Virus record (IMG/VR): IMGVR_UViG_3300044701_002728
Span: 1 to 20,001 of that record
From: a virus
Direction: 5' to 3' (one strand)
DNA length: 20,001 nucleotides
Shown one piece after another: positions 4,345 through 19,564 of this stretch. Position numbers and translations under genes: made by a program. The first letter of the stretch is position 1. Each line of letters opens with the position of its first letter. Under the pieces are notes generated by a model. That model worked only from the letters and a program-made list of their open reading frames with translations, did not search any database and was not told the DNA's origin.

Positions 4345-4540
4345 TTACCACATTGAAGCATACTCTGTCGCCGTTTTTGCCACGCTGGTAACGACCAAGA
4401 CCTCAAAGAATATGCTTGAAAATGGTGGCTAGTGTTTACTAGCCCAGCGAATCCCTGCCCTCGGGAGATTTACGCGGAAGCCTCCGCAACTCCGTACATG
4501 CTACGCTGTCCTACACCCTTGCATGGGTTTTATACCCTTA
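4345..4540 (-). ncRNA. Candidate structured RNA region downstream of RNA ligase
   Basis: No plausible ORF, but several strong hairpins on the minus strand: GGGT-ATAAA-ACCC, GCGGA-GGCT-TCCGC, and GGCTAGT-AAAC-ACTAGCC directly followed by ACCA. The leftmost 81 bases (4348-4428) form a long interrupted stem, with nine consecutive pairs AAGCATATT/AGTATGCTT and outer pairs CATT/AATG and CCA/TGG. This outline resembles the element found twice in the tRNA cluster (14067-14156, 14256-14364). A T-rich run follows at lower coordinates but not directly at the stem. The remaining intergenic bases down to 4225 are AT-rich, with nothing else I can assign. Confidence 0.5.
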
Positions 4541-8815: not shown

Positions 8816-8897
8816 AAACTTGGTGCCCCTTGATGGAATCGAACCAACGATTGATGATTACAAGTCAACTGTTATACCATTTAACTAAAAGGGCAAT
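8816..8897. repeat. 82-bp perfect direct repeat, copy 2
   Basis: Identical to 8063-8144, same orientation. It carries the second tRNA-Thr(TGT). The perfect identity over tRNA and flanks points to recent duplication or ongoing gene conversion. Confidence 0.95.
8821..8894 (-). tRNA. tRNA-Thr(TGT), copy 2
   Basis: Identical in all 74 bases to 8068-8141: anticodon loop CTTGTAA, discriminator A, encoded CCA. Confidence 0.95.
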
Positions 8898-8967
8898 ACT
8901 AAACAAGATTCGCTATGTTTTCAATAACAGTGAAAATTTTTAAATTGCTGAAAGAACCCTAAAAACT

Positions 8968-9042
8968 TGGCGACCTGGCGGGGAATCGAACCCCGATAAT
9001 CGGATAGACAATCCGAAGTAATAACCTTTATACGACCAAGCC
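8968..9042 (-). tRNA. tRNA-Asp(GTC)
   Basis: Acceptor GGCTTGG/CCAGGTC with two G-T wobbles, anticodon loop TTGTCTA on a CGGAT-type stem, T-arm CGGGG-TTCGATT-CCCCG, discriminator G as in bacterial tRNA-Asp, encoded CCA. Confidence 0.93.
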
Positions 9043-9048
9043 ATAAAT

Positions 9049-9133
9049 TGGTGGAGATGATAGGATTCGAACCTATTAGTCCTAAGAAACTGATTTACAG
9101 TCAGCCGCCACCCTCCAACTTAGCCGCATCTCC
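9049..9133 (-). tRNA. tRNA-Tyr(GTA)
   Basis: Type II tRNA with long variable arm; acceptor GGAGATG/CATCTCC, anticodon loop CTGTAAA, T-loop TTCGAAT, discriminator A, encoded CCA. Confidence 0.94.
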
Positions 9134-9302
9134 GAAAAAGGGGCAGTTGTTTTTAGAGTATCTGCCAAACTCATTAGTGGGAAGAACACAACTGCGCGTA
9201 TTCTTCAATGCCACTTGTTTATGCCACACGCGTCAGATTCGACTGCCGACTTAGAGTGGTCTTATGAGATAAACAAAAACTTCAAACAACCTAACAAACA
9301 TA

Positions 9303-9331
9303 ATTATACACGAAGCATACAATTAAGTCAA
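9303..9331 (-). promoter_or_regulatory. Sigma70 promoter inside the tRNA cluster
   Basis: TTGACT, 17 bp, TATAAT with TGT before the -10, located just after tRNA-Cys and driving tRNA-Tyr and those beyond. The leader between about 9296 and 9134 has a tRNA-like outline (GTTTAT/ATAAAC ends, a GTCGG...CTGAC helix with TCGAAT in its loop) that does not fold as a true tRNA. Confidence 0.85.
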
Positions 9332-9339
9332 CAACTTTC

Positions 9340-9414
9340 TGGAGCACAGAGCGAGAATCGAACTCGCGAACAACAGTTTTGCAGACTGCGACATTACCAT
9401 TCTGTCATCTGTGC
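9340..9414 (-). tRNA. tRNA-Cys(GCA)
   Basis: Acceptor GCACAGA/TCTGTGC, anticodon loop CTGCAAA on a GCAGT/ACTGT stem, discriminator T (the Cys identity base), encoded CCA. Confidence 0.95.
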
Positions 9415-9420
9415 ATATCT

Positions 9421-9495
9421 TGGTGCGCCGAGTAGGAATTGAACCTACACTCCCAGAATTATGAGTTCTTCGCTTTACCATTAAGCTATCGGCGC
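9421..9495 (-). tRNA. tRNA-Met(CAT), elongator-like
   Basis: Acceptor GCGCCGA/TCGGCGC fully paired, anticodon loop CTCATAA, T-loop TTCAATT, discriminator A, encoded CCA. There is one A-G mismatch at the base of the anticodon stem. Met or Ile(CAT) cannot be separated by eye. Confidence 0.9.
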
Positions 9496-9510
9496 AATTC
9501 ATATCATAAC

Positions 9511-9586
9511 TGGCACGGCTGGAGAGATTCGAACTCCCGACCTATTGGGTAGAAGCCAACTGCTCTGTCCACTGAGCTACAGCCGT
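9511..9586 (-). tRNA. tRNA-Arg(TCT)
   Basis: Acceptor ACGGCTG/CAGCCGT, anticodon loop CTTCTAC, T-loop TTCGAAT, discriminator G, encoded CCA. It decodes AGA/AGG, rare in many enterobacterial hosts. Confidence 0.94.
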
Positions 9587-9601
9587 ATATTCAATACCGC
9601 A

Positions 9602-9796
9602 TCAAGGTTGTTCTGGTTTCCATCCATACTGTTCAGCAAATTTCTCAGCGGATCGCCGATAGCTATATTCTCGCACAATTGTTGTCACATAGCATTCACT
9701 TTGACGTATAGTGTCGAACTTTAGTTCGCGCACAATAACTACGAACTTAGGGTATGCGGTAGTCGCCAGTCGAATGTGTGCTGTGAACTTTTCCAT
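9602..9796 (-). CDS. Hypothetical protein (64 aa)
   Basis: Starts MEKFTAHIRL; GGAG stands six bases before the ATG. Alternating hydrophobic/polar residues suggest beta strands in the first half and a helix at the C-terminus (RRSAEKFAEQYGW). A small RNA- or DNA-binding fold is possible but not shown. It has its own consensus promoter 60 bases upstream and reads into tRNA-Arg. Confidence 0.65.
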   Translation of the reverse strand: MEKFTAHIRLATTAYPKFVVIVRELKFDTIRQSECYVTTIVREYSYRRSAEKFAEQYGWKPEQP

Positions 9797-9855
9797 CGCG
9801 AACTCCTTTGCGTGTATCTAGTTATAACGTGTTTTGATTAACTATCATAAGACAT

Positions 9856-9884
9856 ATTATACTTCAATTATGTATATAAGTCAA
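9856..9884 (-). promoter_or_regulatory. Sigma70 promoter
   Basis: TTGACT, 17 bp, TATAAT, lying between the metallopeptidase gene and the 64-aa gene, and reading on into tRNA-Arg, tRNA-Met and tRNA-Cys. Confidence 0.88.
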
Positions 9885-9923
9885 GCATTATTTTTGCTGG
9901 ATTTAATATAACTTCAACAGGAA

Positions 9924-10292
9924 TCAATGCCGCAACATATCTAAAATTTGGTTTTCAGAATATTTCGTTATATTATACTTAGAAGCAATCATCTTCGCCA
10001 TCCAAGGAAACGCATCATAATTATAGTAAGATGCTTGAACCTTATATGCTTCTATCTCGCAGTTTAACCTATATGTCTCAGAACACATATACCAAATTCC
10101 GTGCGTTCCGAGAGTTCTATACCACTGCTTGACGTGCGTCAATTCATGCTGAAACAATCCTTCGTCCACACCTTCATATTTCGGACGAATGCGAACATAA
10201 GGTCCATTCACGATTCCACCGAATCCATTTTTAATATTATCTGTATAGTGCACTAGCGCAGGAAGAATTTTGTATACAAAAGTCAATTTCAT
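9924..10292 (-). CDS. Putative zinc metallopeptidase-like protein (122 aa)
   Basis: The motif H49-E-L-T-H53 within 'FQHELTHVKQWYRTLG' is a classic HExxH zinc site; E79 or E82 in 'LNCEIEAYKVQ' could be the third ligand. This resembles short phage and bacterial metallopeptidase domains (DUF4157-like pattern HELTHVxQ). The substrate is unknown. The ATG at 10292 is chosen over an in-frame GTG at 10304, where a MIAN extension would precede it; neither has a strong ribosome site. It follows tRNA-Leu(TAA) closely and is probably expressed from the promoter upstream of that tRNA. Confidence 0.72.
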   Translation of the reverse strand: MKLTFVYKILPALVHYTDNIKNGFGGIVNGPYVRIRPKYEGVDEGLFQHELTHVKQWYRTLGTHGIWYMCSETYRLNCEIEAYKVQASYYNYDAFPWMAKMIASKYNITKYSENQILDMLRH

Positions 10293-10314
10293 ATTCGCTA
10301 TCACTTTCTTTAAC

Positions 10315-10398
10315 TGGTGCGAGTGGAGGGACTCGAACCCTCAAGCCTTGCGGCGGCAGATTTTAAGTCTGCTGTGTATACCGTTCCACCACACTCGC
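10315..10398 (-). tRNA. tRNA-Leu(TAA)
   Basis: Type II tRNA; acceptor GCGAGTG/CACTCGC, anticodon loop CTTAAAA on a CAGA-type stem, long variable arm, T-loop TTCGAGT, discriminator A, encoded CCA. Confidence 0.94.
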
Positions 10399-10407
10399 GT
10401 CTAAACT

Positions 10408-10436
10408 ATTATACCACATTTATTCTTGCATGTCAA
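10408..10436 (-). promoter_or_regulatory. Perfect-consensus sigma70 promoter before tRNA-Leu
   Basis: TTGACA, 17 bp, TATAAT with TGG before the -10: full consensus in both hexamers. Transcription would begin within a few bases of the mature tRNA-Leu 5' end, so little 5' trimming is needed. Confidence 0.92.
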
Positions 10437-10474
10437 CAAATATTTTCACAACAGACGTTCAAGGATGAATTATA

Positions 10475-11230
10475 TTAATTACCATCCCATGTTTTATACC
10501 ATTTCCAAAAGGCTCTTTGCATGGTGTCATCAGTTTCCCATGGAATACTGGGATCGAGTATACCCCTTCCCCAGACTTCCCATGGAATACTCCAACCCAT
10601 CATACCACCCTTCCAGCTACCGGCTCTTTCTCCCAGTTCAACATCAGAATCACAATTTACGACACGTTGCTTTAGGTTTGGCCAAGGTAACCATTTAAAC
10701 CATCTCCATCTCCACTCTCGTTCTTCTCCAGTCAAACGAATTTTGGCAATCTGTTTTCTACCATCTTTAGTGTGCCGCGTCAGAGTGATAAATTTTGCAA
10801 CAAGAACTTGAACTTCATCTTGACGATTACTGTGTTTTTCAAACACATCATACCAGGTTATCTCGCGTTTCTTTTGTGCTGGTGTGCGCATCGGATATTT
10901 ATTTCTATGATAAACCTCACCGTTTGGATATAACAGATCATGCCTTACGATCTCCCATTTCCATGGCATATTAATATTAAATGATCGGTCAGCACCATAC
11001 GATAGCCAAATAATAGAATCATGAAATGATACACCGTAACGCGGCGCTTGTGTTTCAAAATCTTTCCATGGTTTGGTTCTCCATAGATTAATGGAAATAT
11101 AGAATCGCCAAAAAGCGAATACTAATCTAACACAGTATTCATCCCATCCATCAGATGGCCATTGCAACTGTATCATGTACAATCTATATTCTGAGAATAT
11201 AATCTCACCCCAGGCTTTGCGTATATTCAT
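10475..11230 (-). CDS. Tryptophan-rich conserved phage protein (251 aa)
   Basis: By my count 23 of 251 residues are Trp (about 9%), often as W-x-W pairs (EWRWRWFKWLPWP, MPWKWE, FWKWYKTW). Conserved-looking blocks include 'RHDLLYPNGEVYHR', 'KKREITWYDVFEKH' and 'ELGERAGSWKGGMMGWS'. Proteins with the same 'LPWPNLKQR...GERAGSWKGG' pattern occur in several phages, as far as I recall, with unknown function. GGAG stands four bases ahead of the ATG. It has its own promoter between it and tRNA-Ser(GCT). The phage also encodes a tRNA-Trp. Confidence 0.75.
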   Translation of the reverse strand: MNIRKAWGEIIFSEYRLYMIQLQWPSDGWDEYCVRLVFAFWRFYISINLWRTKPWKDFETQAPRYGVSFHDSIIWLSYGADRSFNINMPWKWEIVRHDLLYPNGEVYHRNKYPMRTPAQKKREITWYDVFEKHSNRQDEVQVLVAKFITLTRHTKDGRKQIAKIRLTGEEREWRWRWFKWLPWPNLKQRVVNCDSDVELGERAGSWKGGMMGWSIPWEVWGRGILDPSIPWETDDTMQRAFWKWYKTWDGN

Positions 11231-11262
11231 GGCGCTCCAATAAAATAATTATTCACACACTC

Positions 11263-11291
11263 GTTATATTAAATTATGCGAGCGTTTGCAA
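11263..11291 (-). promoter_or_regulatory. Sigma70-like promoter for the Trp-rich gene
   Basis: TTGCAA, 17 bp, TATAAC. The -35 begins two bases after the CCA of tRNA-Ser(GCT). A CATAAT also occurs in the spacer but at the wrong distance. Confidence 0.65.
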
Positions 11292-11292
11292 C

Positions 11293-11385
11293 TGGCGGTG
11301 AGTGTGGGATTCGAACCCACGAGCCATTGTTTAGATGACTAACACCTTAGCAGGGTGCCGATTTCAGCCACTCATCCAACTCACC
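11293..11385 (-). tRNA. tRNA-Ser(GCT)
   Basis: Type II tRNA of 93 bases; acceptor GGTGAGT/ACTCACC, anticodon loop CTGCTAA on a CACC/GGTG stem, long variable arm, T-loop TTCGAAT, discriminator G, encoded CCA. Confidence 0.95.
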
Positions 11386-11404
11386 AATTTCTTTTCTTCT
11401 AAAA

Positions 11405-11439
11405 ATGAATCCGCTGCATTACCATCCTGCCCACTCTCC
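11405..11439 (-). pseudogene. Possible tRNA 5'-half remnant
   Basis: Directly after the phosphoesterase stop, the minus strand reads like the 5' half of a tRNA: GGAGAGT, a D-arm-like GCA...TGC with GG in the loop (GCAGGATGGTAATGC), then AGCGGATTCAT. No matching 3' acceptor or T-arm follows before tRNA-Ser(GCT). I read it as a truncated tRNA. Confidence 0.4.
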
Positions 11440-11443
11440 TAAA

Positions 11444-12023
11444 TCACATCGCTGGACCATTACCGTTACGGAATCCAACTTCTCCACCTTCGTCTTTGAT
11501 TCGTTTAAGAACGTCTTCAAAAATAATTGGTCGATAATCAGTTTGTTCAACGCAGACGCAATGATATCTAGTATCAATAACATGACCACCATAACCGTCG
11601 TCTTTCATGACTCTTTGATAGTGTAAGTGTCCATGAATATTGACACCAAAACGACCAAGAGAATCTGGATGCAACGGTATGTGAGAAAGAATCATACCAT
11701 TCATCACATGATATGCGCGAAGTTCTCTAAAGTATTCACGATATTCATCGTCTTTAAAGATGTCATGGTTACCGCGAATTAAAACTTTATCACCGTTCAA
11801 ACGTTTCATGACACCCAATGCTTTACGGTTAATCACTACATCACCCAAGTGATAAACTTTGTCATTCGGCTTCACGGTTTCGTTCCAAACTTTTACCATG
11901 TATTCATCCATCTCATCTGGATCTGTCCATGGTCTTAATTTTGTTACACCATCATCACGAGTAAATCTGCATACGCCAGCGTGACCGAAAGTGTGTGTCA
12001 GATACCAGAAATACTGATGGCAT
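11444..12023 (-). CDS. Calcineurin-like metallophosphoesterase, interrupted by a 1-base frameshift
   Basis: A two-metal phosphoesterase; substrates of small phage members are unknown. The ATG at 12023 follows AGGAGGA and encodes MPSVFLVSDTHF, holding the first metal motif DxH. After TTT at 11988-11990 one extra C (11987) moves the frame; the next frame continues GHAGVCRFTRDDG and then HLGDVV, RGNHD and GHLHY, the remaining metal motifs. Read across the shift the protein has 192 aa. Without a shift, translation stops after 22 codons, and an internal ATG at 11911 would give a 155-aa product lacking DxH. The first 26 bases overlap the end of the HNH gene. Either a +1 recoding site or a broken gene. 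Confidence 0.7.
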
Positions 12024-12822
12024 GTGACTTCCTCCTATAATCGTTAGCGGAGAATCGTTCACCGTTTCTCCATTTGTTAATCAAAGAAAGAACCAATTCT
12101 TGTTCTTCCCAAACCATATCATATGATTCTATTTTACTACACAACTCATTAAAAGTCATCCCAGACTTTTCTCTCTTGGAAGAGTTTTCACTATGCGTAA
12201 TAATATTACAGTTGCAAGGATGTCTAAGAATTTCTGGAAATACCCCAACATCAAATCCAAACTTTCTAGATAAAATGTGATCTCTAACGAGTCCATTTCT
12301 ATTGGTTTTGACGTTGAATATACCAACAGTTTCTAACAACGATTTATCCGCATAATTCCACATAGATTGTATCCACTCACTATGCTCAACATATATTTCA
12401 TAATCATCTTTATCATCATCAGAAACCCAGTAACCAAGGTCAACAAAATTTTCTCTCTGTCGTTGTTTATATTCATCGGTGAACTTCTCTCTAGACTTAA
12501 TACCAATTATCTTTTTGGTATCCTCAGAATGTGGTCTTGAATATGATTCTGAATTTCTATGACCGTGCATTGACTCTATTCGGTCTTTAGAGAATTTCAC
12601 TCCCTTATTAGCAGACCCAGCCTTTTGTCGATAAACATCATCAACTTTAGATTTGACAAGATCACTCTGTTTAGTTTTTTGTTCGTCTGACCACGTTTTA
12701 CCATAGTTTGGATTATTCTCTCCGCTATGGTATACACCAGAGCACTTTCTGCTGCATGTCTTTGCTGTAGTGGTATACTCAGTTGAACACACTGGACATA
12801 TCTTTATTGGTTTTTGTTTCAT
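11998..12822 (-). CDS. HNH homing endonuclease with zinc finger and NUMOD3 motifs (274 aa)
   Basis: The N-terminus has a Cys4 zinc site (C9, C12, C23, C27). A NUMOD3 motif follows at about 36-52 (NNPNYGKTWSDEQ) with a weaker copy near 70-105 (NKGVKFSKD; SRPHSEDTKK). The HNH core lies at about 178-216: RDHILSRKFG (D181-H182), RHPCN (H201) and ITHSENSSKRE (N213, K216). It should cut a site in the phosphoesterase gene it occupies and spread by double-strand-break repair. AAGGA precedes the ATG, and a TATAAATA late box lies 25 bases upstream. A 5' fragment of the phosphoesterase gene lies just upstream and a second 5' end overlaps its stop, so its insertion split that gene. Confidence 0.9.
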   Translation of the reverse strand: MKQKPIKICPVCSTEYTTTAKTCSRKCSGVYHSGENNPNYGKTWSDEQKTKQSDLVKSKVDDVYRQKAGSANKGVKFSKDRIESMHGHRNSESYSRPHSEDTKKIIGIKSREKFTDEYKQRQRENFVDLGYWVSDDDKDDYEIYVEHSEWIQSMWNYADKSLLETVGIFNVKTNRNGLVRDHILSRKFGFDVGVFPEILRHPCNCNIITHSENSSKREKSGMTFNELCSKIESYDMVWEEQELVLSLINKWRNGERFSANDYRRKSHAISISGI

Positions 12823-12846
12823 AGTCGTTCCTTTTCAGTACACAAC

Positions 12847-12854
12847 TATTTATA
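12847..12854 (-). promoter_or_regulatory. T4-type late promoter box for the HNH gene
   Basis: An exact TATAAATA on the minus strand, 25 bases before the HNH start codon and within the remnant just after the truncated phosphoesterase stop. Late promoters ahead of homing endonuclease genes are known in T4. Confidence 0.55.
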
Positions 12855-12858
12855 ATTT

Positions 12859-12909
12859 TCAGAAGTTAAGACCAAAGTGTGTATCACTCACTAAGAATAC
12901 ACGCGGCAT
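12859..12909 (-). pseudogene. Truncated 5' end of the metallophosphoesterase gene
   Basis: ATG at 12909 (with AAGGA in the end of the gene before it) opens MPRVFLVSDTHFG, the same N-terminus as the downstream phosphoesterase (MPSVFLVSDTHF), then LNF and a stop. The two copies agree in protein but differ at many third positions. This is the original gene start, cut off from its body by the HNH insertion. Confidence 0.8.
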
Positions 12910-12913
12910 ATGC

Positions 12914-13105
12914 TTATCCTTTCTTTCCAATACGTTCTGCAATTCTACGACGAAGGTCATGAATGTACTCATTATGCCATCCATCTTTGAACTGCGGATA
13001 TTTCTGTGAAAACTGTTCAGCTTTTTTCAGATATTGCTGAAGTTCTTTTATTGACTTAGAAGCGTAGTGGGCTTCACGGTCGAAGTGTCTTGTATTGTAA
13101 CCCAT
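12914..13105 (-). CDS. Hypothetical basic protein (63 aa)
   Basis: Starts MGYNTRHFDREAHYASKS; GGAG lies six bases before the ATG at 13105. In-frame codons further upstream run into tRNA-Ser(AGA) and are excluded. Predicted helical and basic (LRRRIAERIGKKG), without membrane segments. It lies between tRNA-Ser(AGA) and the split phosphoesterase, four bases before the old start of that gene. No family recognised. Confidence 0.65.
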   Translation of the reverse strand: MGYNTRHFDREAHYASKSIKELQQYLKKAEQFSQKYPQFKDGWHNEYIHDLRRRIAERIGKKG

Positions 13106-13125
13106 GATACGCTCCTTAATTAAAA

Positions 13126-13215
13126 TGGCGGAAGTGGTAGGATTCGAACCCACGGAGCCAATGAAGACTCGACTGCTTTCTAGGCAGCTGCCTTAGACCA
13201 CTCAGCCACACTTCC
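13126..13215 (-). tRNA. tRNA-Ser(AGA), A at wobble position
   Basis: Type II tRNA; acceptor GGAAGTG/CACTTCC, anticodon loop CTAGAAA on a GCTGC/GCAGT stem, long variable arm, T-loop TTCGAAT, discriminator G, encoded CCA. All helices are intact, so the A34 is not simply decay. A34 would have to act unmodified or as inosine. Confidence 0.93.
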
Positions 13216-13222
13216 ATAAACT

Positions 13223-13298
13223 TGGTGCACGTTGATGGATTCGAACCACCGACCTCAATCTTGTAAGGATTGCCTTCTAACCACTGAATTAAACGTGC
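13223..13298 (-). tRNA. tRNA-Val(TAC)
   Basis: Acceptor GCACGTT/AACGTGC, anticodon loop CTTACAA on a CAATC/GATTG stem, T-loop TTCGAAT, discriminator A, encoded CCA. Confidence 0.95.
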
Positions 13299-13304
13299 AT
13301 ATAT

Positions 13305-13391
13305 TGGAGGAAGATAACGGAATCGAACTGTTACCGCTCTCGCAGTAGGATGGTTTTCAAGACCATTTGCGCACCATGCACCCTATCTTCC
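13305..13391 (-). tRNA. tRNA-Ser(TGA), overlapping the HNH stop
   Basis: Type II tRNA; acceptor GGAAGAT/ATCTTCC, anticodon loop CTTGAAA on a TGGT/ACCA stem, long variable arm, T-loop TTCGATT, encoded CCA. The discriminator is T, where bacterial tRNA-Ser has G. Its first nine bases encode the last codons and stop of the HNH gene. Confidence 0.92.
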
Positions 13392-13829
13392 TTTGTTCTT
13401 TGCTTTGTACGTTGGTAACTGTGTATCACAATTACTACAAACAAATCTTAAATTCACTAAACGATTATCGTTGTTAATTCCGTTGATGTGATCAAGAATC
13501 AGTGGCATAGGATTGCCGTTCCATTCTGGACCAATACCGCAACAAGCACAACGATACTCAATCAAATTCTCTTCGAGTATTCTGGCTTTAAGAGAGTGTC
13601 TTGTATAACTAGAATTTTCTACCATAACCTCTTCAAGAGGATATCGATCTTTCCAGTACTGGATTCTTCCAGTTTTCTTACCTTTGTTCCAAGCCACGTG
13701 TCCTTTTTTGGCACCAGCTAATGGACTTCTAACTTTCTTAACCGCGTTTGGGTTTTGTTTACACACATTTTCGTGCGCCTTTAAAGAACCAGCATTGTTT
13801 ATCTGTTTACCGCAAAATTGACAATTCAT
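13383..13829 (-). CDS. HNH homing endonuclease in the tRNA cluster (148 aa)
   Basis: A compact free-standing HNH endonuclease. N-terminal zinc finger with C3, C6, H19, C23; a basic linker (KKGHVAWNKGKKTGR); then a zinc-stabilised HNH core with C94/C97 and C131/C134 around D113-H114-I-N-G, N123 and RFVCSNC. The last nine bases, including TAG, lie inside tRNA-Ser(TGA). Just upstream is the 5' half of another tRNA-Ser, which suggests the gene entered a tRNA. GGAGG lies in the loop of a TAGTA/TACTA hairpin (13832-13846), likely limiting translation. Confidence 0.9.
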   Translation of the reverse strand: MNCQFCGKQINNAGSLKAHENVCKQNPNAVKKVRSPLAGAKKGHVAWNKGKKTGRIQYWKDRYPLEEVMVENSSYTRHSLKARILEENLIEYRCACCGIGPEWNGNPMPLILDHINGINNDNRLVNLRFVCSNCDTQLPTYKAKNKGR

Positions 13830-13831
13830 AG

Positions 13832-13846
13832 TAGTACCTCCTACTA
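13832..13846 (-). promoter_or_regulatory. Hairpin presenting the HNH ribosome-binding site
   Basis: TAGTA-GGAGG-TACTA: the complete Shine-Dalgarno forms the loop of a 5-bp hairpin that ends three bases before the ATG at 13829. It could reduce early expression, as known for T4 homing genes. Confidence 0.5.
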
Positions 13847-13878
13847 TTATTTAGTCAAAAGCATCTTTTACACGAACT

Positions 13879-13908
13879 GTAGTAATAAACCAACTCTACC
13901 ACGCTTCC
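13879..13908 (-). pseudogene. tRNA-Ser 5'-half remnant next to HNH gene
   Basis: GGAAGCGTGG plus a D-arm GTAG...CTAC, without the rest of a tRNA. The junction CCA-AGTTTAT-GGAAG is the same as that joining tRNA-Val to tRNA-Ser(AGA), so a tRNA-Ser once followed tRNA-Ile here. The HNH gene now follows it. Confidence 0.6.
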
Positions 13909-13915
13909 ATAAACT

Positions 13916-13990
13916 TGGTACCGATGAGTGGGATTGAACCACTGACCAATGCCTTATCAAGACACTGCTCTTCCACTGAGCTACATCGGC
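13916..13990 (-). tRNA. tRNA-Ile(GAT)
   Basis: Acceptor GCCGATG/CATCGGT (one G-T), D-stem GCTC/GAGC, anticodon loop TTGATAA, T-loop TTCAATC, discriminator A, encoded CCA. Confidence 0.94.
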
Positions 13991-13997
13991 AAAAATT

Positions 13998-14068
13998 TGG
14001 TGGATCAAAGCGGAATCGAACCGCTACCAACACTGCGGCGCACTGGTAATGCCGAACTATTTTGACCC
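13998..14068 (-). tRNA. tRNA-like gene without recognisable anticodon
   Basis: Acceptor GGGTCAA/TTGATCC, T-arm AGCGG-TTCGATT-CCGCT, discriminator A and encoded CCA are intact, but the length is only 71 bases. The central part does not give a D-arm plus a seven-base anticodon loop with T33. The best helix is ACCAGTG/TGTTGGT with an eight-base CGCCGCAG loop. An alternative loop TTACCAG would read ACC (Gly) but needs a bulged stem and no D-arm. Probably a tRNA-like RNA or pseudogene. Its first two bases join the RNA element at 14067. Confidence 0.6.
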
Positions 14069-14156
14069 ATATTGAAACACACTGGCTTCGTCCTCTCCTG
14101 ATCGTGCTAGGCAGCGAACTGAGATTGTCCGGCTCGCGCAATGCGCTTCAATATGG
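14067..14156 (-). ncRNA. Structured RNA element, copy A (90 nt)
   Basis: Read on the minus strand, CCATATTGAAGCGCATT pairs with AGTGTGTTTCAATATGG over 17 consecutive positions, three of them G-U/U-G. On the plus strand those would be A-C mismatches, so the structure belongs to the minus-strand RNA. The 56-base interior contains shorter complementary pieces. It lies between tRNA-Gln and the tRNA-like gene. Same stem, different interior in copy B. Family not recognised. Confidence 0.6.
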
Positions 14157-14255
14157 CTAGTCTGCCCTCTTTTCACTCGGCTACTATGCTTAACCAGGAT
14201 TTGCACCTTTCGAGAACGGATATTCTGAGTACCCATTTTTAGAACTGACTATCTA
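14157..14255 (-). other. Spacer between the two RNA elements
   Basis: Ninety-nine bases without a supported gene. There are tRNA-like traces: TAGTC near the 5' end matches GACTA followed by GCCA at the 3' end, and AGG-TGCAAAT-CCT resembles a T-arm, but it stands in the middle and no cloverleaf forms. A strongly decayed tRNA is possible. Confidence 0.3.
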
Positions 14256-14364
14256 CCATATTGAAACACACTAATACACATGTTAGCTCATTTGTGCTTG
14301 CGGTGCGCTAGCTGTGCACCGAACAGTCGCCACTCTGTCTTTCCTTTAATGCGCTTCAATATGG
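14256..14364 (-). ncRNA. Structured RNA element, copy B (109 nt)
   Basis: The same 17-base arms as copy A, with an unrelated 75-base interior containing CGGTGC-9 nt-GCACCG. The 5' arm starts with the CCA of tRNA-Gln, so tRNA 3' processing and folding of this stem would compete. The conserved closing stem with variable centre suggests a protein- or RNase-recognised terminal helix. Confidence 0.6.
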
Positions 14365-14437
14365 CACCCCCTGATGGATTCGAACCACCGCATGTCGGAA
14401 TCAAAATCCGATGCCTTACCAACTTGGCTAAGAGGGT
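14362..14437 (-). tRNA. tRNA-Gln(TTG)
   Basis: Acceptor ACCCTCT/AGGGGGT, D-stem GCC/GGC, anticodon loop TTTTGAT on a CGGA/TCCG stem, T-loop TTCGAAT, discriminator G, encoded CCA. First tRNA of the cluster in transcription order. Confidence 0.94.
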
Positions 14438-14472
14438 ACAAAAAGTCCCGAATTTTTAAAGAATGGGAGAGA

Positions 14473-14501
14473 ATATTATCTCATGTTGACTGTTTCGTCA
14501 A
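14473..14501 (-). promoter_or_regulatory. Promoter for the tRNA cluster, with inverted repeat
   Basis: TTGACG, 17 bp, TAATAT, placed between the terminator at 14508-14542 and tRNA-Gln. The -35 lies in a perfect inverted repeat GTTGAC-GAAACA-GTCAAC (14485-14502), a possible operator. Confidence 0.7.
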
Positions 14502-14507
14502 CCCCTA

Positions 14508-14542
14508 AAAACAAAAAACCCCTGGAGTATCTCAGGGGTTTT
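14508..14542 (-). terminator. Rho-independent terminator
   Basis: On the minus strand, AAAACCCCTG, loop AGATACTC, CAGGGGTTTT followed by TTGTTTTT. It lies downstream of two strong promoters and just before a third one, so it isolates a short transcript. Confidence 0.92.
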
Positions 14543-14685
14543 GGTGAGTATATAGATACTTTTATCTACTCGCCACCCCATTACTATTATTAATCTCATA
14601 TCCAACCTGTGAGAGTGAACCTGTCCAGCTACTTAATAGTGGTCGACTCTGCTCTAACATGGATATTGCTCTTAATTTCATAGTA
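14543..14685 (-). ncRNA. Candidate small RNA between tandem promoters and a terminator
   Basis: Transcripts starting near 14685 (or 14770) and ending at the terminator would be about 180 (or 260) nt. The 3' part folds as GAGTAGATA-AAAG-TATCTATA-TACTC, and upstream GGGGTGG could pair with the CCCC of the terminator stem, giving two exclusive structures. A 39-codon ORF (14562-14681, start MKLRAISML) fits inside but has no Shine-Dalgarno and would begin almost at the RNA 5' end. A regulatory RNA seems likelier than a peptide. Confidence 0.55.
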
Positions 14686-14691
14686 GAAAGA

Positions 14692-14720
14692 ATTATGCCT
14701 TAAAAATGATTATTAGTCAA
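14692..14720 (-). promoter_or_regulatory. Tandem sigma70 promoter P2
   Basis: TTGACT, 17 bp, CATAAT. The -35, the whole spacer and all but one base of the -10 are identical to promoter P1 85 bases upstream. Confidence 0.85.
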
Positions 14721-14764
14721 GCGTTTTCTGAAAAGTTCTACATAAAGTAGGGATGCTCAACATC

Positions 14765-14772
14765 TATTTATA
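14765..14772 (-). promoter_or_regulatory. T4-type late promoter box
   Basis: Exact TATAAATA on the minus strand, five bases beyond the P1 -10. It could give late expression of the same small RNA unit; only the sequence match supports it. Confidence 0.4.
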
Positions 14773-14776
14773 AACA

Positions 14777-14805
14777 ATTATACCTTAAAAATGATTATTA
14801 GTCAA
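14777..14805 (-). promoter_or_regulatory. Tandem sigma70 promoter P1
   Basis: TTGACT, 17 bp, TATAAT, placed directly after the dCMP deaminase stop. Its spacer is identical to that of P2, which marks a duplicated promoter. Confidence 0.88.
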
Positions 14806-14806
14806 G

Positions 14807-15241
14807 TTATTTTTCAAGATTTTCAACTTCCACACCACATTTTTTCAAAAACTGCACACCAAGGTCGTCACGGTATGCTTCTCTGTAATACACTTTGGAG
14901 ATACCAGCACCATAAATCATCTTAGCGCACTGTATACAAGGAGCGTGAGTGCAGAAAAGACTGGAACCATCTGCTCGTTCACCATCCCTAGCCAACTTGA
15001 GTATTGAATTTGCTTCTGCGTGTATAACTTCATCTTTTGTTTTTGTATAAACTGTGTCATCTTCTCCATGAATCGTTTCCTCACATTCGTTTGTCCATCC
15101 AGCAGGCATGCCATTATATCCGATCGAGATGATACGATTGTCTTTCACAACAACAGCACCAACCTGCAATCGTTTTGCAGTGGACAACTGCGCGAATCTC
15201 TCGGCAGTGTCCATAAATGCGTCAACCCACTTCTGTTTCAT
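14807..15241 (-). CDS. cd: dCMP deaminase (144 aa)
   Basis: Converts dCMP to dUMP, the substrate of thymidylate synthase, feeding phage dTTP synthesis in the cytoplasm. The zinc site is clear: H74-A-E76 (VIHAEANSIL) and P101-C102-I-Q-C105 (HAPCIQC). The N-terminal block 'STAKRLQVGAVVVKDNRIISIGYNGMPAG' is typical of the family, as is the NxCE segment (TNECEE). Length is slightly shorter than T4 Cd. The ATG follows the stop of the DUF6433-like gene by 13 bases; AGG lies ten bases upstream. It is the last gene of an operon with rnh. Confidence 0.95.
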   Translation of the reverse strand: MKQKWVDAFMDTAERFAQLSTAKRLQVGAVVVKDNRIISIGYNGMPAGWTNECEETIHGEDDTVYTKTKDEVIHAEANSILKLARDGERADGSSLFCTHAPCIQCAKMIYGAGISKVYYREAYRDDLGVQFLKKCGVEVENLEK

Positions 15242-15254
15242 AACTATAGCCTAA

Positions 15255-15698
15255 TTAGGTATTATTGTCAACAGGTTTCTTCGTTTCTTTCTTTTCTGGT
15301 GCGGGGATGATTCCTGCGTCGCTCACGAGTTTATGTGTAATTTTTGGGTACAGTTTGGTCAACTGTTGATCTTTAACTGCAATCAAAACTTTCGCTTCTT
15401 CTGGATGAATACCTTCCAACAATCCAATAAACAATGCTTCTCTGCGGATAGGTTTCACTTCTGGTTTACAGAAAACATTATAGAATCTTTTACACTCAAC
15501 ATAAAGATTAGTGTCTGTCATCCCCATTGGTTGATCCGCAGGTTTAAATGGCGGCTCACCCTCTGGCAATTGAAACTTATAAGATGGTAGAAATGCATGC
15601 GCGAAAATGACCTTTAAAAGAAATTCATCTTTATATTTGGTAATTGACTTGGGATCATCATTGATGCTCTTGAGCATTTCAGTTAAATATTGTTTCAT
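15255..15698 (-). CDS. DUF6433-like conserved phage protein (147 aa)
   Basis: N-terminal helix (MKQYLTEMLKSINDDPKSI), a motif 'YKFQLPEGEPPFKPADQPMGMTDTNLYVECKRFYNVF' and a C-terminal 'RREALFIGLLEGIHPEEAKVLIAVKDQQL..LYPKITHKLV' resemble a protein conserved across T4-like and cyanophage genomes (DUF6433 type). Function unknown to me; its position between RNase H and dCMP deaminase fits a replication or nucleotide-metabolism context. GAGGG precedes the ATG by six bases. A Lys/Pro-rich tail ends the protein. Confidence 0.75.
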   Translation of the reverse strand: MKQYLTEMLKSINDDPKSITKYKDEFLLKVIFAHAFLPSYKFQLPEGEPPFKPADQPMGMTDTNLYVECKRFYNVFCKPEVKPIRREALFIGLLEGIHPEEAKVLIAVKDQQLTKLYPKITHKLVSDAGIIPAPEKKETKKPVDNNT

Positions 15699-15714
15699 TA
15701 AAACCCTCTAATTT

Positions 15715-16620
15715 TTAGAAATCTTCTAGTTCATCAAGAAGTAAACGACATTTGTTTGCTATGAGATAATTCATAACAGACATTTTATCGGCTTTCGGCT
15801 TATTACTTAGGTGTGCATTGATGATAGATTGTTTAACTTCTTTGGGGATGTTGTCGAACGCAACCAATACTGCGTTACGGTGCCAATTCCGTTTTTCTTC
15901 ATCAGTGCGACACGCTGCTACACCCTTTTCTATAAATTCTGCAAGTCGTTTTGCGCTCACTGGCTTCTGCCTATCTCCAGAAACAAAAACATCATCTTTA
16001 GATAGAATGTTAGGAATACCGTCGCCAGCATCACCTTTAACGATGTGTTCTACCGTAAAGTCAATTATTTCTTGCTTTGATGCTTGAATAAATTTCTTCT
16101 GCATCGGCGACCATTGACGCACATTACCTGAAGAAAATGGCTCCAGCTGCAGTTGCTTGAAATCTTTGTCAGAAGAAAGAATAAGAACCTTCTGCGGTTC
16201 CTCAACCAACCCCTCTACAATCAGATCATTAGTCTGTGCCCACTCAGTCATGACTGCAATAACGTCGTCTGCCTCTGCGCGGTCGACGTGAATAACTCGC
16301 CATGGAAAATGTTCAGCAATATCTTGCCTCATTTCATTGAGCGTGTCAAAAATCAGACGCCAATCAAGGTCACTTGCTTCGCGATTCTTCTTACGAGACG
16401 CTTTGTAATGTTCAAACACTTCTCTGCGCCAATAGTTACGACCGTCGCAACAGATGATCAGTTCACCATATTCTTTACCATACTTTTTCTTGTGCGACTT
16501 GAGTGTAGATAGAGTCACGTGACGAATCAGATTCTTCACTTCTGATTCGTCACCCTTGAGTTCTCGCTGAAAGGTGAGAATGGCAGCAAGTGCTACCTGA
16601 GAGTAGTCTACGAGTATAAT
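15715..16620 (-). CDS. rnh: T4-type RNase H / 5' nuclease, start codon apparently ATT (301 aa)
   Basis: FEN-1-like nuclease that removes RNA primers from lagging-strand fragments. Motifs in order: LVDYSQVAL (D5, equivalent to T4 D19), ICCDGRNYWRR, RAEADDVIAVM, ILSSDKDFKQL, and GDAGDGIPN near the helix-hairpin segment. From the stop of the previous gene (16636) to 16540 the frame has no ATG, GTG or TTG; the first is GTG at 16539, which would drop the D5 motif. AGGGAG lies seven bases before ATT at 16618-16620, so I choose this codon (ATT at 16624-16626 is too close). The resulting 301 aa matches the 305 aa of T4 RNase H. In T4, rnh is also downstream of dsbA. Confidence 0.92.
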   Translation of the reverse strand: MILVDYSQVALAAILTFQRELKGDESEVKNLIRHVTLSTLKSHKKKYGKEYGELIICCDGRNYWRREVFEHYKASRKKNREASDLDWRLIFDTLNEMRQDIAEHFPWRVIHVDRAEADDVIAVMTEWAQTNDLIVEGLVEEPQKVLILSSDKDFKQLQLEPFSSGNVRQWSPMQKKFIQASKQEIIDFTVEHIVKGDAGDGIPNILSKDDVFVSGDRQKPVSAKRLAEFIEKGVAACRTDEEKRNWHRNAVLVAFDNIPKEVKQSIINAHLSNKPKADKMSVMNYLIANKCRLLLDELEDF

Positions 16621-16635
16621 TTTAATTCTCCCTAA

Positions 16636-17049
16636 TCAATGTGCAACCAATAATAATGTTTCTGGCACTTCAACTTCTTCCCCCATTTTACTTTTTACGT
16701 AGCAGCGCATAGCTGCGATAAGGGGCGTGGAACCATAAGCCCATGCTTCTTTAGAAGCTGGTACGGTTTTGAAGTCTGAAGTGACGTACCCATCTTTTCG
16801 TTTTGCTCTCCATGCGTACCAGTACCCATCCCGTTTCTCTATTACATTTATCTCTCGCTCGATGATTATCCCACCTTGCGCCCAGTCGGTTGTGAACATC
16901 AGGTCGCACAATTGCACGAAGCCATGAGTCTTATGCGGCGGCAGCATCTTTTCAGTCTCGGGGCAATAGTCGGTGTACCCTTCACACGTAGCAACTGCCC
17001 AAACGAGAGCAACGTCTGTCAGTTCGTTGACATTAATTCGCCGCATCAT
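16636..17049 (-). CDS. DUF2591-like phage protein (137 aa)
   Basis: Starts MMRRINVNELTDVALVWAVA; GGAG stands seven bases before this ATG, which overlaps the TAA of the preceding gene as TAATG. The early 'LTDVALVWAVA', the central Trp-rich part and C-terminal 'STPLIAAMRCYVKSKMGEEVEVPETL' (compare NPLRAAMIVFL) are the pattern of DUF2591 phage/prophage proteins, with no proven function. It is translationally coupled to the 370-aa gene and directly precedes rnh. Confidence 0.7.
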   Translation of the reverse strand: MMRRINVNELTDVALVWAVATCEGYTDYCPETEKMLPPHKTHGFVQLCDLMFTTDWAQGGIIIEREINVIEKRDGYWYAWRAKRKDGYVTSDFKTVPASKEAWAYGSTPLIAAMRCYVKSKMGEEVEVPETLLLVAH

Positions 17050-18161
17050 TAAAACGCTCCAAGAAGAATACAATCCTGATTTATCCTACCATTCGGTGTA
17101 GTAGGTTTAGTCGTCAATTTCTTAAATGCAGCAGTCAATGCTCTCTTACCCATTGACAATCCCTTGAAGAATTGCTCCGGTTTGCGTAGCGTCACTGAAA
17201 TAGATTCCTTAATACTGAACCCGATAATCGTCGTACCTTTAACACTAAGCGTACTCATGTCTGCTCTGTATACCTGAACCTTACGGTACTTCGTATTATA
17301 TACCCACAACTCACTCGCAGTGAGAATGTCTTCTGGTTTACAAGATTTAAGATTGAGTTCGGCGAATTCTTTCATGTACTTCAGTTTGCCAACAACTTTG
17401 CTTGGTGGAGTAGCCTTGCGTTTGCGCGGTGCTCTAGTAGCCTTGGCAGTCTGCACCATCTGATGGCAATCGGCAACAATTTCTCCAACAAATTTATGGA
17501 ATGCCTTTAGCTCTCGCTTGCTGAAATTTGAATATCCCTCAACAAGCTGATCATCTTCTCCGTTGACCACAGCATCAAGTTCGTTGTAGAGTTTAACGAA
17601 TTTGTCTCCGATTCGCTTTGCAATCGGTGCTGCCACTGAGTTCGCTAGAAGATAATTCTTGGCAGAAAAAGTCGTCTTGCCGTTGTTGGATACAAAATCA
17701 TCAATAGCTCCCTCAATCTCGCCAGCGAGTTCTCTCGCCTTTTCTTCCATTCGTTCTTGAATGGAAATGACGTTAGAAGTGGGCGATTCTGCTGGTTTCT
17801 TTTCTTTGATGATCTTATATTTTTTGACAAGTTTCGCGACAGTGTCACTAATAAAATTGATGTGTTTCTCAGTCAAATACTGTTCGCGTGTTTTCAACCG
17901 ACAGATAATCGCCAACTGTCGAATTTCTGCATCGGTGGCTTTATTGATAGCCAACACTTCATGTTTTTTGTTGAATTTTGCAAAATACTCTAACGCATAC
18001 TTGCGAAGGATTTTCTCGTTAGCATGTTCACTATACCACGATAGCGCGGAATTAAGACTGGTGTTGTAATTTTCCAGGGTCACTGATGGTTCATTAGCCA
18101 ACAATTCCTTGCGTGATTGCAAAATTACATGACCTTTAACTCGACTTTTTGATGTGCTCAT
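17049..18161 (-). CDS. Unknown helical phage protein (370 aa)
   Basis: The largest gene of the right half. It begins MSTSKSRVKGHVILQSR; helical and Lys/Glu-rich segments (about 60-190) precede a basic linker (ATRAPRKRKATPPSKVVGK, about 243-261) and a C-terminal region with beta-like alternation (VYNTKYRKVQVYRA, VKGTTIIGFSIKES). I do not recognise a family. Lying between dsbA and rnh, and having a basic linker, it may act on DNA or in replication/late transcription. GGAGG lies ten bases before the ATG, a long spacing. It has its own promoter. Confidence 0.7.
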   Translation of the reverse strand: MSTSKSRVKGHVILQSRKELLANEPSVTLENYNTSLNSALSWYSEHANEKILRKYALEYFAKFNKKHEVLAINKATDAEIRQLAIICRLKTREQYLTEKHINFISDTVAKLVKKYKIIKEKKPAESPTSNVISIQERMEEKARELAGEIEGAIDDFVSNNGKTTFSAKNYLLANSVAAPIAKRIGDKFVKLYNELDAVVNGEDDQLVEGYSNFSKRELKAFHKFVGEIVADCHQMVQTAKATRAPRKRKATPPSKVVGKLKYMKEFAELNLKSCKPEDILTASELWVYNTKYRKVQVYRADMSTLSVKGTTIIGFSIKESISVTLRKPEQFFKGLSMGKRALTAAFKKLTTKPTTPNGRINQDCILLGAF

Positions 18162-18189
18162 AGGTGTAAAACCTCCATTAATAATATGT

Positions 18190-18218
18190 ATTATACATCA
18201 AATCGCATTTAAAGGCAA
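18190..18218 (-). promoter_or_regulatory. Sigma70-like promoter of the rnh operon
   Basis: TTGCCT, 17 bp, TATAAT with TGNT-type extended -10, 30 bases before the 370-aa gene start. The same TTGCCT variant is used at 19802-19830. Confidence 0.82.
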
Positions 18219-18247
18219 GTGTTTTTTGCGACACTCTACATGTAGGT

Positions 18248-18493
18248 TTATTTCGTGACTGTATCGTAAATCTCCACGAATTCTTCGTGGTCTGCAATTT
18301 CTTGCGTTAGATTTTGCTTATGATAAGTCTTAGCAATTTTACTAATGATTTTTTTGGGGATAGAATGTTTTTGGGATTGGTCTTTCACAATTTCACGAAT
18401 CAGATCACGTTCGGCTTCTGTTCTCGTCATCGACGCGCTGATTTCACGAACAGCACCTTGCAGTTCTTTCTTTTGCTCTGGGGTCAAATTCAT
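18248..18493 (-). CDS. dsbA: DsbA-like double-stranded DNA-binding late-transcription protein (81 aa)
   Basis: Similar in size and pattern to T4 DsbA, a dsDNA-binding protein linked to late promoters: 'MTRTEAERDLIREIVKDQSQKHSIPKKIISKIAKTYHKQN' has the expected helix, the IPKK/IDKK turn and the YHKQN motif, then an acidic C-terminus (EEFVEIYDTV). In T4 dsbA is close upstream of rnh, as here, which supports the call. The ATG overlaps the previous stop as TAATG and AAAGG lies before it. Confidence 0.82.
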   Translation of the reverse strand: MNLTPEQKKELQGAVREISASMTRTEAERDLIREIVKDQSQKHSIPKKIISKIAKTYHKQNLTQEIADHEEFVEIYDTVTK

Positions 18494-18687
18494 TATTTAC
18501 CTTTCACGGAAACATTTGCGCGGAGAAAAGCGCCAAGCAGAATAACCGCAAACCATGTCTTGATGGTGTATGGGATTAGTATAGTTGGAAATAGGCTGTT
18601 CAGTGCCCAAATCGTTAGGAGTGGTCCGATAATGATCCCTCCGACGATAATCATAGACAAGATGATAATTTTATTGTACTCACTCAT
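18493..18687 (-). CDS. Small membrane protein (64 aa), two helices
   Basis: Hydrophobic segments at about residues 7-30 (IIILSMIIVGGIIIGPLLTIWAL) and 41-55 (IKTWFAVILLGAFL) predict a small inner-membrane hairpin ending in a basic tail (RANVSVKGK). Its ATG overlaps the preceding stop (ATGA) and its TAA overlaps the dsbA start (TAATG), so it is tightly coupled to both. No family recognised. Confidence 0.65.
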   Translation of the reverse strand: MSEYNKIIILSMIIVGGIIIGPLLTIWALNSLFPTILIPYTIKTWFAVILLGAFLRANVSVKGK

Positions 18688-18983
18688 AGTTCAATCCTAA
18701 CTTGTTTCAACGAGTCCCAGCGGAAAGATCTCCACTCTTGTTTTTCTGTGTCGAATACTCGAAACGCATCTTCGCTGAGGGATCGAGCAGTAGAGCCACT
18801 TTCCGTCTGTTTTGGTTGTTTGTCATTCGGAATTCTGTTCTCTGAAAGAGTGCAGAATAGTTCTCGTTCTGTACCATCTTTCTTGGTAAACACAACGCAC
18901 AGATTTTTTGTAGCATCATCGTGCAAAACTCCCTTGAGCCATGTTTTAAATTCAGGTGTTTGGTTCGCTTGTATTGTCTTCAT
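18684..18983 (-). CDS. WYL_2/DUF2693-like SH3-barrel protein (99 aa)
   Basis: The sequence 'VVFTKKDGTERELFCTLSENRIPNDKQP ... DAFRVFDTEKQEWRSFRWDSLKQVRIEL' has the signature of the small phage family WYL_2 (formerly DUF2693), predicted to fold as an Sm-like SH3 barrel and possibly to bind nucleic acid. The ATG at 18983 is preferred to an in-frame TTG two codons earlier. The start lies inside the end of the preceding gene. Confidence 0.8.
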   Translation of the reverse strand: MKTIQANQTPEFKTWLKGVLHDDATKNLCVVFTKKDGTERELFCTLSENRIPNDKQPKQTESGSTARSLSEDAFRVFDTEKQEWRSFRWDSLKQVRIEL

Positions 18984-19200
18984 TATCAAATCTTACTTTC
19001 AAATCATTAATCAAAGGCGTAAAAAATTGTTTAAATTCCTGTTTAGTGAAAAATGTAGTGCATCTACTATTAATATTTCTCTTGCCGCGTTTATCATCAA
19101 GGTATTTAATAATTGTAAATTCAACAACATCATAACAATGATCCTTGATTTTAAATGCAGTTAAACCACCGTCATGTCCAAATTCATATGTGCTGGCCAT
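18952..19200 (-). CDS. Hypothetical protein (82 aa)
   Basis: Starts MASTYEFGHDGGL; AAGGA stands five bases before this ATG at 19200, while in-frame codons further upstream belong to the overlapping 47-aa gene. The protein is basic and mixed alpha/beta, with a Lys/Arg-rich middle (DDKRGKRNINSR). It overlaps the following gene start by 32 bases. No family recognised. Confidence 0.65.
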   Translation of the reverse strand: MASTYEFGHDGGLTAFKIKDHCYDVVEFTIIKYLDDKRGKRNINSRCTTFFTKQEFKQFFTPLINDLKVRFDNEDNTSEPNT

Positions 19201-19327
19201 AAGATTCCTTTTTGTGTTTCGGATTACGAATGTATTTAATCTTACTCTCAACTATACGCATTCGATATTTGGGAGTTCGAAGATCTTTTGCAACAAGATT
19301 TCTAGGTTTTGAATCCTTATTATACAT
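19184..19327 (-). CDS. Very small basic phage protein (47 aa)
   Basis: MYNKDSKPRNLVAKDLRTPK, then 'YRMRIVESKIKYIRNPKHKKE'. The pattern 'NLVAKDLRTPKYRMRVV..K..Y.RK' belongs to a family of tiny basic proteins found across tailed phages, function unknown. It starts four bases after the preceding stop and its last 17 bases overlap the next gene. Net charge suggests RNA or DNA contact. Confidence 0.7.
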   Translation of the reverse strand: MYNKDSKPRNLVAKDLRTPKYRMRIVESKIKYIRNPKHKKESYGQHI

Positions 19328-19330
19328 GAT

Positions 19331-19564
19331 TCACTTTCGTTGGTCAAATTTCTTTAATACGTCTTTTGCATCTTTTAAATCTTCTAGTTCTACGATTTCA
19401 TCCATCGTCGCCAGAATTACCAATTCTTGCAATGTGTCTGCAAGTTTCTGGTCTTCCTCATCCAGTAAATTATACCAATCAGAATACTCTTCATCAGTTT
19501 GCAATGTCCACATATGATCTAGCATTTCCGCTTGATATGGCGTGAGGTTGTCTATCTGAATCAT
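19331..19564 (-). CDS. Small acidic protein (77 aa)
   Basis: Starts MIQIDNLTPYQAEMLDHMWT. Strongly acidic and helical (LDEEDQKLADTLQELVIL, MDEIVELEDLKDAKDVLKKF). The N-terminal 'LTPYQ..MLD.MW.....EE...W...L' is a pattern I have seen in small proteins of many phages, function unknown; charge and size are compatible with DNA mimicry, which is speculative. GAGGG precedes the ATG. Confidence 0.7.
   Translation of the reverse strand: MIQIDNLTPYQAEMLDHMWTLQTDEEYSDWYNLLDEEDQKLADTLQELVILATMDEIVELEDLKDAKDVLKKFDQRK

Follow-up and report, generated by a model that had tools for sequence, protein, structure and literature searches.

Exchangeable RNA hairpins at the CCA ends of tRNAs in phage tRNA arrays, and their kinship with the intervening segment of permuted tmRNA

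Several systems offer points of comparison for RNA that lies between the tRNAs of phage tRNA arrays. In permuted two-piece tmRNA an intervening segment follows the CCA of one piece and precedes the 5′ G run of the next; the permuted transcripts are cleaved by tRNA-processing enzymes and the intervening sequence is absent from mature tmRNA (PMC11915505), and in one survey 50 of 53 two-piece phage tmRNAs were from marine or aquatic phages (PMC9004378). The intervening sequences of bacterial 23S rRNA have a long closing stem, a variable interior and a sporadic presence, are exchanged between genomes and are cut by RNase III, although they sit in helix tips of one RNA. The phage T4 tRNA cluster includes stable non-tRNA RNAs and RNase III sites within a phage tRNA transcript, but no CCA-anchored cassette family is known to us there. 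The ornate RNAs GOLLD and ROOL are large phage RNAs near or around tRNAs.

Here, we describe RNA hairpins that start at the CCA tail of a tRNA or other structured RNA, in some cases end in the first bases of the next RNA, and also form the spacer of two-piece tmRNAs. They were recognized in a 20,001-nucleotide stretch of viral DNA (IMG/VR record IMGVR_UViG_3300044701_002728, positions 1 to 20,001; ‘the window’ below), are widespread in large phages known from aquatic and other metagenomes, and correspond to no family in Rfam 15. The locus lies in a minus-strand tRNA array with 23 tRNAs called by ARAGORN in the window, and its order in RNA sense is tRNA-Gln, element B, a 99-nt RNA (M), element A, a tRNA-like unit and tRNA-Ile, behind a weak promoter-like match. 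The features are as follows.

14515..14542, minus strand: terminator-like hairpin upstream of the promoter-like site (1 site in the window against 0.6 in shuffles).
14472..14501, minus strand: promoter-like TTGACG-17-TAATAT ahead of tRNA-Gln (3 sites in the window against 1.4 in shuffles, and thus weak).
14362..14437, minus strand: tRNA-Gln(TTG), whose CCA (14362-14364) is the first three bases of element B.
14256..14364, minus strand: element B, a 109-nt hairpin with left arm 14348-14364, right arm 14256-14272 and an interior of 75 nt.
14157..14255, minus strand: M, a conserved 99-nt structured RNA that exactly fills the space between B and A, with closing stem TAGTC/GACTA.
14067..14156, minus strand: element A, a 90-nt hairpin with left arm 14140-14156, right arm 14067-14083 and an interior of 56 nt.
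13998..14068, minus strand: tRNA-like unit GGGTCAA...TTGATCC-ACCA (limits and acceptor stem read by eye), not called by ARAGORN and scoring 20.8 bits with Rfam tRNA-Sec, below the cut-off of 47; its G1-G2 (14067-14068) are shared with element A.
4426..4540, minus strand: stretch before the third element (approximate limits), ending GCTAGTAAACACTAGCCA-(CCA), like the end of module S1 of other phages (resemblance judged by eye, not by a search).
4348..4425, minus strand: third element, with a type I interior and diverged arms in which 16 of 18 positions pair, counted by eye.

A first-pass annotation made from the sequence alone had described A and B as two copies with identical 17-base arms and different interiors, and this observation is confirmed by our analysis, with coordinates, arms and interior lengths all correct. 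There are 4 and 5 arm matches in the window against 0.08 and 0.07 in shuffles. In minus-strand RNA all 17 positions pair, with G.U at positions 11 and 13 and U.G at 16, whereas in plus-strand RNA these three are A.C mismatches; fold z-scores are -5.5 and -4.5 on the minus strand and -1.75 and -3.3 on the plus strand. B begins with the CCA of tRNA-Gln, and A begins with the CCA that follows M and ends in G1-G2 of the next unit, as the annotation had it for the tRNA-Gln junction and the two-base overlap. The locus recurs in two other IMG/VR records of the same phage at 99.99-100% identity, and is thus unlikely to be an assembly error.

The interpretation placed on these copies is partly supported. 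RNA-level selection on the stem, residence in tRNA arrays on the tRNA strand, register with the mature tRNA ends, and the absence of a fitting named family all hold, and we extend them in showing that the same cassettes are intervening segments of permuted tmRNA and that sequence-unrelated arms occur in the same place. One repeated element with one fixed fold is not supported, and the suggested interplay with tRNA processing is inferred from position and the tmRNA precedent, no transcript data having been available. No Rfam family reaches its gathering score: in the A/B region the only overlapping hit with more than 15 bases is 16.6 bits against 77, the third copy gives 22.1 against 170 on the other strand and 16.7 against 48 on its own, and all 21 gathering-score hits in the window are tRNA. 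A, B and M are called neither by ARAGORN nor by the Rfam tRNA model and are not canonical tRNAs. There is no GOLLD or ROOL hit in the window at gathering score or around A and B at E up to 10, and A and B are much smaller than these RNAs. The literature, in a limited search of open-access papers, named no such hairpins.

The family is widespread. The pattern CCATATTGAA-N(60-90)-TTCAATATGG matched at least 120 stretches in IMG/VR, from which 119 distinct elements were used (loci collected in this work are numbered with the prefix L). Compensatory changes in relatives had been proposed beforehand as evidence for a structured RNA, and a lack of covariation as evidence against it, and compensation is what we find: pairs 11-17, left free by the search pattern, covary, such that among 115 elements pair 12 is CG in 85, TA in 18, TG in 8, AT in 3 and GT in 1, pair 14 is CG in 82, TG in 17, TA in 15 and AT in 1, and pair 16 is U.G in 81. 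Pairing fades after positions 17-18. Of 60 elements with an upstream tRNA end within -10 to +60 nt, 58 start exactly at C74 and two start 17 and 21 nt after the end; the other 59 have no such tRNA. Of the 38 elements that lie just before a tRNA, 21 share its first two bases, but 55 of the 119 touch no ARAGORN tRNA at either end. The elements are 63-251 nt long, within the limits of the search.

A sequence-blind test asked which tRNAs with an encoded CCA start a stem of 15 positions, with at most one mismatch, at C74. In loci fetched by the arms, 116 of 1297 such tRNAs do so against 1.2 in shuffles, and 48 have left arms other than CCATATTGAA; in 92 loci fetched by interior or by M, the figure is 45 of 670 against 0 in one shuffle each. 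At least nine of these 161 hits look like search artefacts and are still in the totals: L010 2107, L033 1572, L023 7303, L183 12293 and L200 2828 span another tRNA, L059 3928 and L114 12683 span two elements, and L070 960 and L105 3211 rest on six G.U pairs. In 110 distinct CCA-anchored arm pairs, 97.3% of cells at positions 4-17 pair, against 74.9% when right arms are re-dealt, and for the 47 with other left arms the values are 94.2% and 56.9%; the hairpins were picked for pairing, but shuffles yield only the 1.2 given above.

The hairpins are not spread evenly over tRNAs. In the first set they follow Glu in 20 of 59, Gln in 15 of 46, Lys in 16 of 57 and Leu in 23 of 113, against Met 0 of 102, Asp 0 of 60, Ala 0 of 54 and Ser 1 of 97. 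In the second set they follow Lys-UUU in 17 of 24 and Glu-UUC in 10 of 34, whereas Gln (3 of 28) and Leu (4 of 46) are near expectation, and Gln, Leu-UAG (2 of 18) and Arg-ACG (0 of 23) did not replicate. Counts in the first and second sets are 13 and 17 for Lys-UUU, 20 and 10 for Glu-UUC, and 15 and 3 for Gln-UUG, against within-locus expectations of 4.2 and 2.2, 6.5 and 3.7, and 5.4 and 1.7, respectively. Because the loci share ancestry the isotype P values are indicative only, but de-duplication of the first set (858 tRNAs, 91 with hairpin) left the trend, and leaving out 8 cases in the second set that bear a query motif left 37, of which Lys-UUU 13 and Glu-UUC 10. The excess at Lys and Glu tRNAs is the strangest of these findings, and together with that at Gln in one set it ties the elements to the question of why phages carry tRNAs at all.

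One reading of this bias, which we consider very unlikely, is that the stem shields the CCA end as a counter-defence that keeps selected phage tRNAs (Lys, Glu, Gln) as protected precursors against tRNA-attacking immunity. tRNAs are targets of anticodon and tail nucleases (PMC12409363, PMC12851939), Cas12a3 cleaves CCA tails and viruses are said to need yet unknown means of resistance to it (PMC12851939), and the CCA lies within the duplex in the 58 tRNA-linked elements that start at C74. There are no functional data for such a role, however, a sealed CCA cannot be charged, tmRNA intervening segments have the same anatomy, the related loci are not independent, and Gln is not significant in the second set. 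A broader version, also unlikely but not excluded by the evidence, is that large phages share a common pool of RNA cassettes with a standard duplex handle, plugged in at CCA ends (above all of tRNA-Lys, tRNA-Glu and tRNA-Gln) and into tmRNA and swapped between genomes, in which the duplex hides the CCA tail and the fast-changing interiors act as decoys or effectors against host immunity that attacks tRNAs.

Interiors are modular, forming 94 groups among the 119 elements, and show no excess local folding (mean z -0.07, about 0 on both strands), such that the elements could not be recognized by interior fold stability. Alike interiors sit in different neighbourhoods (L026 after tRNA-Leu and L044 after tRNA-Gln; L077 between tRNAs and L101 between other RNAs), and one interior recurs with different, compensated arms. 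Conversely, L037/L107 and L069/L121 have flanks 96-100% identical over 72-103 nt but unrelated interiors, and the same tRNA pair occurs without an element, joined by 9-10 nt, in L048 and L057 (flanks 76-90% identical). These features could be accounted for by selfish mobile repeats, either MITE-like or like the 23S rRNA intervening sequences, that tolerate insertion at tRNA ends because the RNA is trimmed, and the sporadic presence of the elements and their interior G+C of 0.50, against 0.41 for the loci, are in keeping with this. A match of the arms to a simple mobile DNA repeat found outside tRNA transcripts in both orientations had been named in advance as an outcome that would count against a structured RNA, and occurrence in both orientations relative to transcription was not observed: of 101 elements oriented with a margin, 92 have all tRNAs within 3 kb on their own strand, 3 have none, and 6 have all on the other strand, but of these six, five have one mismatch in either reading and one is a near-tie, so that they do not show a real reversal. 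Target-site duplications and linked transposases or recombinases were not sought. The arms also covary into unrelated sequences and the isotype bias is seen in two sets, and we regard the mobile repeat explanation as unlikely.

The third copy provides the link to tmRNA. Its interior (type I) alone recurs in 46 stretches and, together with a pattern for its second half (36 stretches) and a fuzzy scan of the collected loci, in 43 distinct places, the window copy being counted once through L139 of the same phage. The arms differ and stay complementary: in 39 aligned copies 9 of 11 outer pairs change on both sides (45 cells), 99.0% of cells pair over all 22 pairs tested, and 0 of 500 shuffles reach any of the five measures, although the inner pairs hardly vary and say little. 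The alignment omits L131, L158, L133 and L207, which have other arms or an indel, and has the window copy in place of L139; a separate tabulation in which outer pairs mix two registers was not relied on. In 23 of the 43 places the cassette is the intervening segment of a permuted two-piece tmRNA, of which 21 pass a test of 7 of 7 paired acceptor bases, L068 rests on a motif flag and L202 on reading by eye. The same script found 24 permuted tmRNAs with 7 of 7 acceptor pairs, 21 holding a type I cassette, two (L115 and L121) another long-stem hairpin, and one, in phage DLP6 (L124, around 7900), a 31-nt segment; this candidate is not in the feature list of the DLP6 record for that stretch. Loss of the segment from the mature RNA was not examined, as no RNA data were at hand.

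A and B share with the tmRNA intervening segment a start at the CCA of a structured RNA (tRNA-Gln for B, M for A), but they do not lie between two acceptor strands that pair with each other: the upstream unit is a complete tRNA-Gln or RNA M and the downstream unit a different RNA. We thus do not class them as tmRNA intervening segments, although in our reading they work like one. A, B and most of the 119 elements join different RNA genes, have many interior families, and have arms of 17 bp with CC paired to GG, usually without the TGA bulge seen by eye in the tmRNA form. They differ from the 23S rRNA intervening sequences in sitting between RNA units in register with CCA. The 17-bp stem length is compatible with an RNase III substrate, cleavage itself not having been assayed, and neither the 23S rRNA comparison nor similarity to the T4 cluster RNAs was tested. 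An identity as introns or halves of split tRNAs was rejected on reading of the sequences because the boundaries fall at CCA and G1, without a splicing test, and an identity as part of GOLLD because L101 1-2000 has no GOLLD hit even at E up to 1. One locus, L092, does have a GOLLD RNA (7302-7765, 207.5 bits) with a tRNA hit inside it, followed, by eye, by a long-stem hairpin with different arms before a tRNA.

We favour, with moderate confidence, a model in which A, B and the third copy are exchangeable connector hairpins in long transcripts of tRNAs and other structured RNAs. The stem starts at the CCA 3′ end of the upstream RNA and in some cases ends in the first two bases of the downstream tRNA, so that the future ends sit at the base of one helix, and during maturation the hairpin would be cut out or cut up, at its 3′ side by RNase P when a tRNA follows, and at its 5′ side by 3′-end processing, possibly after RNase III cleavage of the long stem, as the intervening segment of permuted tmRNA is removed from the same place. 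Shared arms would let phages swap whole cassettes by recombination, while the interior varies and some interiors are conserved RNA motifs. The analysis itself demonstrates the structure, its covariation, the register with RNA ends, the strand, the exchange, the isotype preference and the identity of type I cassettes with tmRNA intervening segments, whereas transcription as one precursor, excision, the enzymes, recombination at the arms and any job of the interior are inferences made without transcript, cleavage or protein data, and we have no account of why interiors are kept, changed or conserved. A plain spacer would need neither elements of this length nor a near-invariant 42-nt interior such as type I, homologous tRNA pairs manage with 9-10 nt, the lack of any hairpin starting at a CCA in the stretches of DLP6 and X1 examined and the 31-nt segment in the permuted tmRNA of DLP6 indicate that processing does not require the element, and the excess at Lys and Glu tRNAs is not predicted by a general connector. 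The 55 elements that touch no ARAGORN tRNA, the lack of excess local structure in the interiors, and the failure of all 28 tRNAs of BUCT-ZZ01, which has long-stem hairpins on its tRNA strand, to pass the C74 test also count against this model. What is new is a widespread and unlisted family of RNA elements that links phage tRNA arrays to permuted tmRNA through a shared cassette and gives a testable lead on how phages process long RNA arrays; removal of a segment from permuted tmRNA is already described.

A possible though tentative alternative is that the elements are a class of stable small RNAs in which the 17-bp stem is a common handle and the interior the active part, with many families, merely freed by tRNA processing. 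The type I interior is nearly invariant over 42 nt while its arms change, although its first or second half was fixed by the search patterns. A second type (type II) is tRNA-like and keeps a T-arm in 23 distinct elements, with complementary arms of differing sequence, and a T-arm motif is present in 13 of the 119 interiors; the type I, type II and M searches each fixed part of the sequence, so conservation there is partly by choice. Recurrence of one interior in different contexts and compensating changes inside interiors, seen by eye in L034/L112 and L066/L101, also fit this view, but the 94 interior groups and the interior fold z of about 0 do not, and a fixed register with CCA is not needed for a free small RNA.

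Among named phages, BLAST of one element gave 11 records at E of 3 or worse. In the stretches of DLP6 and X1 examined (35 kb and 37 ARAGORN tRNAs each) no hairpin starts at a CCA, and DC31 has one 21-bp hairpin not at a CCA. The isolate BUCT-ZZ01 (L126) has several long-stem hairpins of 14-24 bp on its tRNA strand, one enclosing a tRNA, and a permuted tmRNA (21953-22249), but 0 of its 28 ARAGORN tRNAs (16466-33715) pass the C74 test; the record’s annotation of this stretch lists only CDS. The similar hairpins of this isolate make tests possible. In bacterial genomes the strict arm pattern gave 0 hits and the type I core 1 hit, on a 3-kb MAG contig labelled Halanaerobiaceae (L209, 2080-2390) that holds what reads as a permuted tmRNA with a type I cassette and is perhaps a misbinned phage contig.

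The RNA M between A and B is conserved in 13 aligned sequences, in a short form of 98-99 nt (9) and a long form of 150-155 nt (4), and has no Rfam hit at gathering score. A right-arm-like sequence precedes each, and a hairpin with at most 2 mismatches in 15 starts at the CCA after 8 of the 9 short forms (not L211) and after none of the 4 long forms. In 9 sequences there are 26 predicted pairs, 8 with changes on both sides, and the closing stem changes as TAGTC/GACTA, GAGTC/GACTC and TGGTC/GACCA. L101 878-1770 is a chain of conserved RNA modules S1-S4 separated by elements, with no ARAGORN tRNA in between and no Rfam hit to them even at E up to 1, and S1 has 12 hits, S2 5, S3 6 and S4 18 in the loci searched. 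L022 13185-13378 is a group I intron match just above threshold (53.4 bits, cut-off 50) near the RNA array.

The window also encodes several proteins on the minus strand beside or within the array. An RNA ligase (4541-5620; PF09414 with PF21189 OB-fold, phrog_968) lies next to the third element, and DC31 has a 50% identical one. An RNase H-like PF04308 protein (6446-6931) lies beside the tRNA array; an ORF cluster of this protein spans 32 of the loci compared and it occurs in 76 phage records, making it a candidate nuclease, with no functional link shown. The product of 10475-11230, inside the array, matches Acb3, a CBASS inhibitor (PF25187, 1.3e-20). Homing-type genes are present among the tRNAs at 5669-6391, 11998-12822 and 13383-13829, with SegE-like GIY-YIG (just under its cut-off) and NUMOD3 matches, and 13383-13829 resembles a Gordonia phage HNH gene at the DNA level. 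A dispersed A+T-rich 41-nt repeat (family D8, 63-73% identity to its reference copy) is present at 9855, 14691, 14776, 18189 and 19801.
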